Positions 2,496-5,633 of a stretch of 5,633 bases of DNA are shown here, piece by piece. Each line of letters begins with the position of its first letter. Position 1 is the stretch's first letter. The position numbers and the translations under genes were made by a program. Origin of the DNA: an uncultured Eubacteriales bacterium (GTDB taxonomy: Bacteria; Bacillota; Clostridia; Oscillospirales; Acutalibacteraceae); contig ONXZ01000135.1 in the NCBI GenBank assembly GCA_900321905.1, forward strand, positions 1 through 5,633. The letters are read 5' to 3'. A model generated the notes under the pieces. It ran no database searches, was not told the DNA's origin, and saw only the letters and a program-made list of their open reading frames with translations.

Positions 2496-3443
2496 TTAAT
2501 AACTGAATTTGTGGCCGTCGCAACGCTTGAGAAGTTCATCCCAGCGGCGGTCTACTTCCTTTTGGAAAGTTTCAATCATCCACTCATTGCCCGGCTTGAA
2601 CATATGCTTGAACCTGCCTTGCTTGACGAGCCATTCCTCAATAGGAACGTATTTTGCCGGCTCGTAGTTAAGAATCCACTTGCCGTCAACTACCTCGAAC
2701 AGCGGCCAGTAGCGGGTTTCAACAGCGAGTTTGCAGATATCCATAATATCGTAAGTAGGATATCTCCAGCCGCGCGGACAAGGCGCCATTATGTTGAGAA
2801 ATGCCGCGCCTTTTGTGTAAATTGCCCTCTCGCTCTTGCAGTGAAGGTCGCGGAAGTTCTTGACAAACGTTGTCTGCGCAACATACGGAATCTGATGTTC
2901 AGCAATAATTGCAGCCAAATCCTTGCGGTATTCAATTTTACCGTCTGACTGCCTGCCGACAGGCGTTGTGGTTGTATCTGCAAACATCGGCGTTGCAGAT
3001 GAACGCTGAATACCTGTGTTCATATACGCGCCGTTATCGTAGCAGACATAAACCATATCGTGGTTACGCTCCATTGCACCCGAAAGTGACTGGAAACCGA
3101 TATCGTATGTGCCGCCGTCGCCGCCAAAGGTGATGAACTTGAAGTTATCATCCTTCAGTTTGCCCTTGCGTTTAAGTGCATTGTATGCACCCTCTACGCC
3201 CGAAAGTGTTGCGCCTGCATTCTCAAACGCATTGTGAATATATGAGTCCTTATATGCAGTATAAGGGTACATAAAACTCGAAACTTCAAGACAGCCTGTT
3301 GCGTTGCCGACTACAGCGTGGTCGCCCTCGTGAATGGCTTTCAGCACGTTCCTGACAGCAATAGTACCGCCGCAACCTGCACACATTCTGTGACCCGGGG
3401 CGAGTCTGTCCTCACGTGACACAAATTCTTTAAAATTGTACAT
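2496..3443 (-). CDS. porB: 2-oxoacid:ferredoxin oxidoreductase beta subunit (PorB/VorB-type, TPP-binding)
   Basis: This 315-residue subunit holds thiamine pyrophosphate and the proximal [4Fe-4S] cluster of a cytoplasmic enzyme that converts a 2-oxo acid plus CoA to acyl-CoA, CO2 and reduced ferredoxin, reversibly. Visible are CAGCGG (C21, C24), C51 in GNATGCLEV and C222 in APCPRGW, the four expected cluster ligands. GGDGG (107-111) and CYDNGAYMNTG (134-144) form the TPP/Mg motif. Length fits archaeal and Thermotoga POR or VOR beta chains (about 310-325). The start follows AAGGAGGGG and lies 12 bp after the alpha stop; it is the last gene of the operon. Pyruvate versus branched-chain specificity cannot be read from the sequence; the T-box leader favours a role in amino-acid supply. 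Confidence 0.93.
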   Translation of the reverse strand: MYNFKEFVSREDRLAPGHRMCAGCGGTIAVRNVLKAIHEGDHAVVGNATGCLEVSSFMYPYTAYKDSYIHNAFENAGATLSGVEGAYNALKRKGKLKDDNFKFITFGGDGGTYDIGFQSLSGAMERNHDMVYVCYDNGAYMNTGIQRSSATPMFADTTTTPVGRQSDGKIEYRKDLAAIIAEHQIPYVAQTTFVKNFRDLHCKSERAIYTKGAAFLNIMAPCPRGWRYPTYDIMDICKLAVETRYWPLFEVVDGKWILNYEPAKYVPIEEWLVKQGRFKHMFKPGNEWMIETFQKEVDRRWDELLKRCDGHKFSY

Positions 3444-3455
3444 ACTCTCCCCTCC

Positions 3456-4640
3456 TTACTCACGGACACCCATATATCTGTATGGGTTATCGACCTTGCC
3501 CTCTTGGGCAATTTTTTCAAGTTCTTCATAAACATCAATCATATGTTTAACACGCACGTCACGTCCGCCGAGACCGTAAACGTAATTGACAGTCAGGCAG
3601 TCGCTTTTTGCACGGTAAAGCGCAGTTGTGACGTCTGCGCCAAGCGGTCCGCAGGAATCGTTATATGACTCGGTTCTGTCCATAATTGCAACTGCTTTGA
3701 CGCCTTCAAGCGCCTTTGCGATTTCATCTGCCGGAAACGGACGGAACAGTCGAATTTTAATCATACCGACTTTTTTGCCCCACTCGTCACGCATTTTGTC
3801 AACGGCTTCTTTAGTAGTGCCTGCCGCAGAGCCAATGATTACAACAGCATACTCGGCGTCGTCCATACGGTATTCTTCAAAAAGTCCGTATTCCCTGCCA
3901 GTGAGTGCTGCATATTCTTTAGCAACGTCAAGTGTAACCCGCTTAGCGTTTTTAAGCGCTTCTGCCTGTGCGCGTTTAGCCTCAAAATAGTAATTTGTAA
4001 CGCTGTAAGGACCAACCGCCATTGCGCAGTCAGGGTCGAGAAGCGAGTGTTCAGGTTCGTATTCGCCTACAAAGTTTTTAACTTCGTCGTCCTCGTTAAG
4101 CGTAATATTTTCAACAGCGTGCGACGTAATAAAACCGTCCTGACAAATCATAACAGGAAGTTTTACGTCCTTATGCTCACCGATTCTGTATGCCATACAG
4201 AGGTTGTCGTAAACCTCCTGATTATTCTCTGCGTAAATCTGAATCCAGCCCGAATCACGCGCTCCCATTGAATCTGAATGGTCGCAGTTGATATTGATAG
4301 GACCTGAAAGCGCACGGTTAACAAGAGTCAGAACAATTGGCAGACGGTTTGAAGCGGCGAGGTAGAGTTCCTCCCACATAAGCGCCATACCCGCTGATGA
4401 AGTGGCTGTAACCGACCTTGCGCCTGCTGACTCAGAGCCGATAACTGCAGACATTGCTGAGTGCTCGCTCTCTACAGGAATGAACTCGCTGTCAACCTTG
4501 CCGTTAGCGACAAGTTTTGAAAAATACTGCGGAATCTCCGTTGACGGCGTTATAGGAAAAGCCGCCATAACGTCGGGGTTAATCTGTCTTAAAGCCTCGG
4601 CAACGGCTTCGTTACCGGACATTCTGTCTTTCTTTGCCAT
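3456..4640 (-). CDS. porA: 2-oxoacid:ferredoxin oxidoreductase alpha subunit (PorA/VorA-type)
   Basis: The 394-residue alpha chain has the usual length for four-subunit POR/VOR enzymes. The N-terminal pyrimidine-binding domain (about 1-240) contains FPITPST (28-34; T31 matches the family's substrate-contact Thr), VESEHSAMSAVIGSESAGAR (56-75) with the Glu expected to activate TPP, TATSSAGMALM (78-88), and NRALSGPINI...DHSDSMGARDSGW (108-132). The C-terminal transketolase-like domain (about 255-380) holds VVIIGSAAGTTKEAVD and RLFRPFP. With beta it forms the TPP active site. Its ATG overlaps the delta stop as TAATG, preceded by GGAGGGGG inside delta, implying translational coupling that the damaged delta frame may weaken. 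All visible motifs are intact. Substrate (pyruvate, branched-chain or aromatic 2-oxo acid) is undetermined. Confidence 0.93.
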   Translation of the reverse strand: MAKKDRMSGNEAVAEALRQINPDVMAAFPITPSTEIPQYFSKLVANGKVDSEFIPVESEHSAMSAVIGSESAGARSVTATSSAGMALMWEELYLAASNRLPIVLTLVNRALSGPININCDHSDSMGARDSGWIQIYAENNQEVYDNLCMAYRIGEHKDVKLPVMICQDGFITSHAVENITLNEDDEVKNFVGEYEPEHSLLDPDCAMAVGPYSVTNYYFEAKRAQAEALKNAKRVTLDVAKEYAALTGREYGLFEEYRMDDAEYAVVIIGSAAGTTKEAVDKMRDEWGKKVGMIKIRLFRPFPADEIAKALEGVKAVAIMDRTESYNDSCGPLGADVTTALYRAKSDCLTVNYVYGLGGRDVRVKHMIDVYEELEKIAQEGKVDNPYRYMGVRE

Positions 4641-4880
4641 TACTTAACCCCCTCCATAGTAAGTGCGCCCGTCGGGCAGGTTTTTACGCAAATGCCGCAG
4701 CCTTTGCAGTGGTCATAATCAATAGGTCCTCGCGCTGTAGTGCCTTTGACAACAGCGATGCAACTAAGCCCACTCGCCTGTGTTAAAATCAACAGACGTA
4801 CTGCTGCCGTAAATCTGCATACCTTCTGTAAGGTCGGTCCATTTGCAATCAAGACCGAGATTTGAAAGATCGCTTTTCAT
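4640..4880 (-). pseudogene. porD: Delta (ferredoxin) subunit, frameshifted with internal deletion
   Basis: The delta subunit normally carries two [4Fe-4S] clusters that pass electrons from alpha/beta to free ferredoxin; about 100 residues is usual. Here the ATG at 4880 (TAATG overlap with gamma) opens a typical delta N-terminus ending DFNTGEWA (residue 38), then hits TAG at 4766-4764. The rest continues in the +1 frame: SCIAVVKG, IDYDHCKGCGICVKTCPTGA and a stop at 4642-4640. The second cluster motif CxxCxxCxxxCP is present. The first, expected between GEW and the SCIAV region, is missing. The remaining 241 bp are not a multiple of three and fall some 65-70 bp short of normal, which fits one internal deletion. 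A real mutation or an assembly error are both possible; a functional 38-residue product is unlikely. Confidence 0.85.
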
Positions 4881-5455
4881 TAACCGCGCACCTCCTCAAA
4901 TGCCATTTTAAGGGCGTTCATATTACCCTCGATAACTTCGGGTTTTGATGAGAATTTATGTTCAAACGAAGTCTGCATTTCTTTGAAGAACACATTCTCC
5001 TCCATAACGCGTGAAACTTTGACAATCGCCGCAAGCATTGGAGTGTTAGGAAAATATCTGCCAAGGCACTGCTTTGAAACCTTGCGAGCGTCAATTGTGA
5101 ACACCTTGCCGCTATAACCTCCGAGGTGCTTTTTTATCTCAGAAACAGACTTTTTAGTGTTAACAACTATTGCGCCGTCCTCCGACAGACCGTCAGTTAC
5201 ATCAACAACGTCAAGGAGTCCCTCGTCAACAACCACAACATAATCAGGGTGGTAGATGTTAGAGTGAACTCTGATTGGCTTATCTCCTATTCGGTTATAA
5301 GCGGTGATAGGCGCACCCATTCGTTCCGGACCGTATTCAGGAAAGCCCTGAACAAACTTGCCGGTTTTGAAGGCAACGTCCGCAAGCAGAAGAGCCGCAG
5401 TTTTTGCGCCCTGTCCGCCCCTGCCGTGCCAGCGGATTTCAACTACATTATCCAT
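4880..5455 (-). CDS. porC: 2-oxoacid:ferredoxin oxidoreductase gamma subunit (PorC/PorG-type)
   Basis: The 191-residue gamma subunit matches the 185-192 of Thermotoga and Pyrococcus enzymes. Family hallmarks are IRWHGRGGQGAKTAALLLAD (7-26) and GFPEYGPERMGAPITAYNRI (37-56), then a Rossmann-like stretch with VVVVDEGLLD and a conserved GRYFPNTPMLAA region. It is called PorC or PorG depending on species, and in some organisms is shared between POR and VOR. I chose the ATG at 5455 (MDNVVEIRW) because GGGG at 5464-5467 lies 8 nt upstream and the family starts here; the in-frame ATG at 5557 would place 34 codons inside the T-box and terminator. It is the first gene of the operon, directly under T-box control, and its TAA overlaps the delta ATG by one base. 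Confidence 0.92.
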   Translation of the reverse strand: MDNVVEIRWHGRGGQGAKTAALLLADVAFKTGKFVQGFPEYGPERMGAPITAYNRIGDKPIRVHSNIYHPDYVVVVDEGLLDVVDVTDGLSEDGAIVVNTKKSVSEIKKHLGGYSGKVFTIDARKVSKQCLGRYFPNTPMLAAIVKVSRVMEENVFFKEMQTSFEHKFSSKPEVIEGNMNALKMAFEEVRG

Positions 5456-5476
5456 AATATCGTCCCCTTTTAAATC

Positions 5477-5510
5477 AAAAAAGCCTCCTAACCCTAAAGG
5501 GTTAAGAGGC
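5477..5510 (-). terminator. T-box regulated intrinsic terminator
   Basis: GCCTCTTAACCC and GGGTTAGGAGGC form a 12-bp stem (one G-T pair) with a TTTA loop, followed by TTTTTT (5482-5477), ending 21 bp before the gamma ATG. The 5' arm contains CTCTT, which also pairs with AAGAG next to the T-box sequence, so terminator and antiterminator exclude each other. Confidence 0.93.
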
Positions 5511-5633
5511 GATATAAATACCGTGGTACCACTCTTATTCGCTGATAAACAGCGCACTCTCGCATACTCTGAAACAGGTGATATGCTGACTCTGTAACGG
5601 GAGTAACCGTATGTGCTTACTTAATTCTGCACA
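5483..5633 (-). ncRNA. T-box riboswitch leader (3' portion; Stem I and specifier largely outside window)
   Basis: T-box leaders bind a specific uncharged tRNA and then prevent termination. The conserved T-box is at 5521-5536, AAGAGTGGTACCACGG on the minus strand. Its AAGAG can pair with CTCTT (5508-5504) in the terminator arm, leaving a UGGUACC bulge; CGGUAU/AUAUCG gives the second antiterminator helix. Upstream are a Stem III-like hairpin (CGCTG/CAGCG, 5540-5554), a GCATAT/GTATGC stem (5562-5586), the conserved CTCCCGTTA region with ACGG/CCGT pairing (5597-5610) and an AAGTAAG element (5616-5622) like that following Stem I. The UGGU bulge predicts a tRNA ending ACCA, so discriminator A. The specifier codon should lie at or beyond the right edge. 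It controls the oxidoreductase operon. Confidence 0.92.

Follow-up and report, generated by a model that had tools for sequence, protein, structure and literature searches.

T-boxes switch genes on when their cognate tRNA is uncharged, and the presence of such a leader directly in front of a 2-oxoacid:ferredoxin oxidoreductase operon raises a question about which amino acid is sensed there and what the enzyme would contribute to its supply. The stretch of DNA analyzed here (the window, 5,633 nucleotides) is the whole of contig C220 from a 1.76-Mb assembly in 274 contigs that is 84% complete, and its minus strand, read from the contig end, carries first the 3' part of a T-box, then a terminator and then the genes for the gamma, delta, alpha and beta subunits. 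The leader part (5502..5633, minus strand) matches positions 107-219 of the 219 positions of RF00230 at 57.5 bits (cmscan, E 2.5e-12), a value short of the gathering score (93) because the contig ends within the T-box and lacks its 5' half; the antiterminator region is present, and Stem I is missing together with the specifier codon, which lies off the contig. A tRNA was the sole Rfam match at gathering score over the whole window, and the leader was overlapped by two weaker matches, to PyrG_leader (31.1 bits against a cut-off of 65, E 0.013) and to an Enterococcus sRNA (13.1 bits against 100), each far short of its threshold.

The T-box core AAGAGTGGTACCACGG was read from the sequence at 5521..5536 (minus strand), and its AAGAG can pair with CCTCTT (5509-5504) to form an antiterminator that would exclude the terminator, CCTCTT also belonging to the terminator 5' arm in the usual either-or arrangement. 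The intrinsic terminator (5477..5510, minus strand) consists of a hairpin with a 12-pair stem and a loop of 4 (5510-5483) followed by six T down to 5477. It was the one terminator found by the search, compared with a mean of 0.2 in shuffled sequences, and the fold of 5633-5465 had an energy of -50.3 kcal/mol (z -3.14), with 1 of 200 shuffles as good. The ATG of the gamma gene, at 5455, follows the T run after exactly 21 bases on the same strand. These data confirmed that a T-box leader, cut to its 3' part, and its terminator occupy the right end of the window before the oxidoreductase operon, as the preliminary description of this DNA had proposed.

The same description had taken the operon to encode a four-subunit enzyme, and the domains of all four subunits were indeed found in one gene row, which places the enzyme in the POR/KOR superfamily. 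On the minus strand, the gamma gene (4880..5455, POR/KOR gamma, 191 aa) matches PF01558 at 139 bits and TIGR02175 at 219 bits (cut-off 81), and it is followed by the ferredoxin-type delta gene (4640..4880), the gene for a pyruvate-synthase-type alpha subunit of 394 aa (3456..4640; PF01855, 241 bits; PF17147, 100 bits) and that for a TPP-binding beta subunit of 315 aa (2496..3443; PF02775). The part of the claim that did not stand for the window itself concerns delta, which is broken there: the piece 4640-4852 matches Fer4, TIGR02179 stays below its cut-off, and the gene measures 241 bases versus 309 in the relative L006, so that with 68 bases fewer it is out of frame and its first 4Fe-4S motif is gone. 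This defect is either an assembly gap or a true loss; delta is whole in the 49 close relatives described below, in each of which the delta ORF spans 100 aa or more. Beyond beta lie a tRNA-Leu(GAG) and then a large ORF without a Pfam match; the open frame at 2-1636 (545 aa, a signal-like start by eye, no Pfam match) is truncated at the contig end. The 3' end of tRNA-Leu(GAG) recurs as an exact 18-base copy 248 bases from the tRNA (2061-2078 and 2309-2326), and a third copy (72%) lies at 1990; this looks like an attachment-site remnant.

Related loci were taken from a scan with alpha as the best 80 of 422 candidates (L006-L085). A close group of 49 loci (L006-L054, 80-98% identity) comes mostly from metagenome-assembled genomes named Eubacterium, Oscillospiraceae, Ruminococcaceae or Clostridia, several of them from animal guts by title, with rumen or reticulum titles for 4 of the 49 (L006, L010, L012 and L032). 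The gamma gene is present in 48 of these loci, L050 being without it on its contig, and a T-box core was detected by motif pattern before gamma in 47 of the 48. An Rfam scan of 24 of the 48 gave a full-length RF00230 match above the gathering score at the operon in 23 (107-146 bits), and for the remaining 24 the T-box call rests on the motif. The one scanned locus that lacks a full-length T-box before gamma, L024 (3700-4110), which is also the sole member of the close group to have gamma and no leader, has GGCAGAGAGGCGTTTTTT at that place, which resembles the terminator 3' half of its relatives; because this half apparently remains, the leader was presumably lost there. A Gut-1-like RNA (48.0 bits, cut-off 50) lies upstream in L024.

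The distance from T-box core to gamma motif is 91-247 bases in the 47 loci, the longer spacers (164-247 bases) belonging to L033, L036, L039, L049 and L054, and within this spacing an ordinary-sized gene would not fit. In the 24 of the 47 leaders that were aligned, the AGAGTGGTACC and CGG columns are invariant, and compensatory changes occur in 34 of 61 predicted pairs, those of the terminator hairpin included. Terminator, shared CCTCTT arm and covariation agree with mutually exclusive antiterminator and terminator structures, and covariation and position together exclude a chance match as the source of the T-box. The gene order is gamma, delta, alpha, beta, and the commonest further neighbour is GroEL-like by eye (25/49 loci).

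In the distant group (L055-L085, 67-73% identity, mostly Lachnospiraceae), no operon T-box reached the gathering score in the 29 of 31 loci scanned (all but L084 and L085), a count that includes L068, L073 and L074, which have no gamma on their contigs, and L083 and L072, with only 199 and 408 bases before gamma. The sole T-box match in this group, at 7650-7919 of L078 (minus strand), is away from the operon. ZTP riboswitches occur downstream of the operon, on the same strand, in the distant loci L060, L070, L072, L074 and L077. A strict DNA pattern joining T-box core and gamma motif was found in a single one of 391 genomes of the class, that of the window, and in 2 of 150 genomes of the family, and it misses true cases such as G449, which has the T-box without the pattern. 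Alpha relatives at E 1e-120 or better were present in three of 150 genomes of the family (135 genera), all of the window's genus, and all three have the T-box (the window, L137 and L138); two of them, G449 and G572, are probably the same genomes as L034 and L027. As far as sampled, the operon T-box is confined to one close group.

With the window's own specifier off the contig, the codon was read in the relatives. The register was defined in the Rfam alignments as the codon after GAA-N on the 3' side of the Stem I loop and calibrated on the T-boxes of valS, cysE, asnS, thrS, leuA, proS, pheS and trpE, genes that were named from their sequences. Where GAA is shifted or absent (proS, leuA, trpE, thrS, some cysE and, in part, the oxidoreductase), the 3' anchor NNN-N-NNNN-[C/U/G]GA[G/A] was used; the pheS boxes, which partly have one extra base at the 3' anchor, follow GAA-N. 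The choice between two anchors leaves some freedom, and no box needed a third. In the window's own genome the T-boxes read GUA for valS, UGC for cysE, AAC for asnS and ACC for thrS, and a fifth, reading UUC, stands at a contig end. The thrS T-box at 1041-1519 of L005 has 293 unmodelled bases after Stem I. At the oxidoreductase operon the specifier is AUC, for isoleucine, in all 47 readable related loci (46 by a pattern preferring ATC and L031 by eye, all 47 being re-read), including L006, whose alpha is 98% identical to that of the window. At the position before AUC, 46 loci have U and L015 has A; at the one after it, 38 have C and 9 have A. The specifier thus names an amino acid with a 2-oxo-acid precursor, as expected for a T-box whose codon fits the downstream gene. 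The preliminary description had named three observations that would speak against it, namely a specifier unrelated to any 2-oxo acid substrate, a gene between T-box and operon, and relatives all free of the T-box, and none of the three was made.

To place this reading within the regulation of whole genomes, all T-boxes were assigned in four of them (G001, G006, G008 and G023). Each of the 32 matches could be assigned: 4 stand at the oxidoreductase operon (AUC), 26 read the amino acid of their own gene (4 valS GUA, 4 pheS UUC, 4 leuA CUC, 1 proS CCU, 4 cysE UGC, 1 asnS AAC, 3 trpE and 1 trpB-like UGG, and 4 thrS ACC) and 2 stand at aspS and read asparagine (AAC). The aspS boxes, at L089 and L097, are an indirect fit, AAC boxes being known for an AspRS that also charges tRNA-Asn. 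No T-box match was found in these four genomes at ileS, ilvA, ilvC or ilvD, and therefore the oxidoreductase operon alone has an isoleucine box there. In agreement with this observation, no T-box core lies within 600 bases upstream of ileS at 8 of 8 loci. One passage of Wels et al. 2008 (PMC2494555) describes the isoleucine box of ileS as the only one present in all T-box bacteria, and another passage of that paper gives, for ileS and some other ligases, a figure of at least 29 among 34 Firmicutes.

By its scores against NCBIfam models, the enzyme appears nearest to pyruvate synthase and not to the valine-type or indolepyruvate enzymes. Alpha scored best with NF040682 PorA_Arch (490 bits, cut-off 550), then with a general 2-oxoacid model (426 of 590), another pyruvate model (385 of 625), phenylglyoxylate dehydrogenase (353 of 700) and VOR, the 2-ketoisovalerate oxidoreductase (337 of 646), and beta with NF008819 PorB (339 bits, cut-off 405), VOR (287 of 405) and oxalate oxidoreductase (246 of 590). 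Neither subunit reached the equivalog cut-offs of the pyruvate synthase PorA/PorB or VOR models, and indolepyruvate oxidoreductase (IOR) is far off (alpha against IOR_alpha, 48 of 651; gamma against IOR_beta, 23 of 206). Because alpha and beta stay below the pyruvate-synthase cut-offs and other models also score, the family does not fix the substrate. The nearest solved structure, for alpha as for beta, is 9bt4, a pyruvate:ferredoxin oxidoreductase, followed by oxalate oxidoreductase.

Alpha keeps counterparts of Thr31, Arg114 and Ile123 of the Desulfovibrio enzyme, which we take to be its pyruvate-binding residues, and a neighbouring Phe/Trp is Asn both in the operon enzyme and in the T-box-free relatives compared. 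In the NRALSGPININCDH stretch of alpha no fixed difference sets the T-box group apart from its T-box-free relatives; the enzyme may therefore have a different main role, with the switch added to its regulation late. The near-fixed differences between the two groups, at 17 alpha and 8 beta positions, gave no hint of the substrate.

The pathway genes were analyzed in 40 genomes, namely the window's, 29 of the close group (the T-box-free L024 included) and 10 of the distant group. Threonine dehydratase IlvA (TIGR01127) was above its cut-off in 39 of the 40, the one miss being the 84% complete genome G000, and a loss of IlvA was accordingly rejected as the operon's reason. IlvC was above cut-off in 40 of 40 genomes and IlvD in 9 of 9; citramalate synthase was above cut-off in none of 9, its best score being 73 of 450 bits. 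Because IlvA is present, 2-oxobutyrate has another source, threonine, and the operon would therefore be an additional entry, induced by starvation. In the genomes inspected, the IlvA-like gene stands beside a RidA-like gene and not in an operon with ilvC; at L118, L119, L120 and L122 the two (named by eye) are on the same strand, a possible enamine-clearing pair. A POR_N frame whose length (850-1220 aa) is that of a one-chain PFOR is present in 33 of the 40 genomes and in 28 of the 30 of the T-box group, and so pyruvate oxidation need not depend on the operon. No CoA ligase or transferase was recognized by eye among the 25 commonest neighbour families.

Taken together, these results favour, with somewhat better than even chances, an isoleucine T-box that switches on a POR-type operon when tRNA-Ile is uncharged, the enzyme carboxylating propionyl-CoA to 2-oxobutyrate; induction by uncharged tRNA-Ile, the reductive direction and propionyl-CoA as substrate are what we infer here. 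As in T-box biology generally, the anticodon of uncharged tRNA-Ile would pair with the AUC specifier and its acceptor end with the UGGU bulge, by which the antiterminator (AAGAG with CCUCUU) would be stabilized over the terminator and the operon turned on. The enzyme, judged by its regulation and family, would then run reductively and form 2-oxobutyrate from propionyl-CoA and CO2 in a ferredoxin-dependent reaction, and IlvC and IlvD would carry this first isoleucine-specific intermediate on to isoleucine. A biosynthetic role, as already proposed when the enzyme was suggested to make amino-acid precursors, is argued for by T-box biology, because T-boxes raise expression when the cognate tRNA is uncharged. 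The choice of propionyl-CoA follows from the POR type, the isoleucine-only specifier and a precedent in PMC7476758, where a passage describes several anaerobes that turn propionate into 2-ketobutyrate by ferredoxin-dependent carboxylation. Against this explanation count another passage of that paper, according to which pyruvate formate-lyase may do the same job in some anaerobes, the presence of IlvA as another source of 2-oxobutyrate, with no T-box at ilvA, the family scores that leave the substrate unfixed, the lack of a recognizable CoA ligase or transferase among the 25 commonest neighbour families, the possibly late addition of the switch, and, in the window, the specifier lying off the contig and the broken delta.

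The preliminary description had favoured the salvage of branched acids, and the alternative that best survives is of this kind, the same isoleucine T-box controlling the carboxylation of 2-methylbutyryl-CoA to 3-methyl-2-oxopentanoate in the gut. We consider it unlikely, although it would need no IlvA, 2-methylbutyrate is an isoleucine precursor in rumen fermentation according to a passage of PMC7356843 (citing Robinson and Allison 1969), and four of the 49 close loci bear rumen or reticulum titles. For alpha as for beta, the pyruvate synthase models outscore those of VOR (490 versus 337 and 339 versus 287 bits), and the specifier names isoleucine only. VOR-type enzymes act on the valine, leucine and isoleucine oxo acids alike. 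An isoleucine-only specifier therefore favours 2-oxobutyrate, because a branched-acid enzyme would serve valine and leucine too. Branched-acid salvage is thus less well supported, with 2-methylbutyryl-CoA staying in the field as a rival, and the conversion of propionyl-CoA to 2-oxobutyrate appears to fit better.

Still less probable is a general pyruvate synthase or oxidoreductase for which tRNA-Ile charging would be a mere readout of the amino-acid or carbon state. Pyruvate synthase is the best family match and the presumed pyruvate-binding residues are kept, but pyruvate is not isoleucine-specific, the PFOR-like frame coexists with the operon in nearly all genomes of the T-box group, and the other T-boxes of the four genomes (26 of 28 reading their own amino acid, and the 2 at aspS reading asparagine) indicate that boxes are pathway-specific here. 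In fermenting bacteria such enzymes commonly run oxidatively, turning 2-oxo acids into acyl-CoA while reducing ferredoxin, and with IlvA-like beside RidA-like and not with ilvC, threonine could feed 2-oxobutyrate to the enzyme; a T-box that raises expression at isoleucine scarcity would, however, waste an isoleucine precursor, and we regard an oxidative enzyme whose T-box has no isoleucine-supply meaning as very improbable. A misread specifier that would in fact be UAU (tyrosine) and point to aryl-pyruvate synthesis is scarcely credible. UAUC, identical in 46 of 47 loci, speaks for it, but L015 has A and not U before AUC, so that the UAU frame is not conserved, and the register used here fits the other T-boxes assigned in five genomes.

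The preferred reading, propionyl-CoA carboxylation under an isoleucine T-box, matters because sequence is a poor guide to the direction in which such oxidoreductases run in heterotrophic anaerobes of the gut, and an amino-acid-specific RNA switch is a genetic argument for biosynthesis that also names the amino acid supplied. If it is true, isoleucine synthesis under tRNA control draws on propionate, one of the main acids of the gut, and can be followed by simple labelling tests; the operon would encode a T-box-controlled reductive carboxylase, and its leader would be a regulatory signature separating biosynthetic from fermentative 2-oxoacid:ferredoxin oxidoreductases. We give even chances to the wider view that a group of gut Clostridia have placed their isoleucine sensor at a ferredoxin-driven carboxylase and not at ileS, and so turn community propionate into isoleucine carbon.

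No description of a T-box paired with a 2-oxoacid:ferredoxin oxidoreductase was found in the literature searched, a scope that leaves aside supplementary tables and T-box databases, so a published table entry may exist. The passages compared were from PMC11477304, PMC2494555, PMC3766115, PMC5171806, PMC2700814 and PMC2940859, and 'ferredoxin' is absent from the main texts of three T-box surveys or reviews among them. The nearest precedent in these passages is a conserved sequence that precedes iorAB-paaK in Geobacter and appears under tryptophan in Table 2 of PMC2700814 ('possible promoters and riboswitches'). There, too, a conserved leader precedes a 2-oxoacid:ferredoxin oxidoreductase taken as biosynthetic, but it measures about 90-100 bases and is not called a T-box in that paper, where only that of leuA is, and the enzyme is of the indolepyruvate type and from a different phylum. 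Propionyl-CoA carboxylation in anaerobes (Buchanan 1969 and others, cited in PMC7476758) has the same proposed reaction and role, with no RNA control named in the passage concerned. The four-subunit pyruvate synthase PorABCD (9bt4) shares with the operon enzyme the subunit set, the domains and the best scores, whereas the operon enzyme stays below the equivalog cut-offs, has an isoleucine T-box in front and shares 28 of 30 genomes with a one-chain PFOR-like frame. The T-boxes of leuA, trpE and cysE in the same genomes are like that of the oxidoreductase in RF00230 architecture, terminator, codon specifier and a biosynthetic gene downstream, and they differ in that the gene controlled here is a ferredoxin-dependent oxidoreductase. 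Finally, the ileS T-box has the isoleucine specifier in common with the leader described here, but in the four genomes ileS is without a T-box and the isoleucine box stands at the oxidoreductase.
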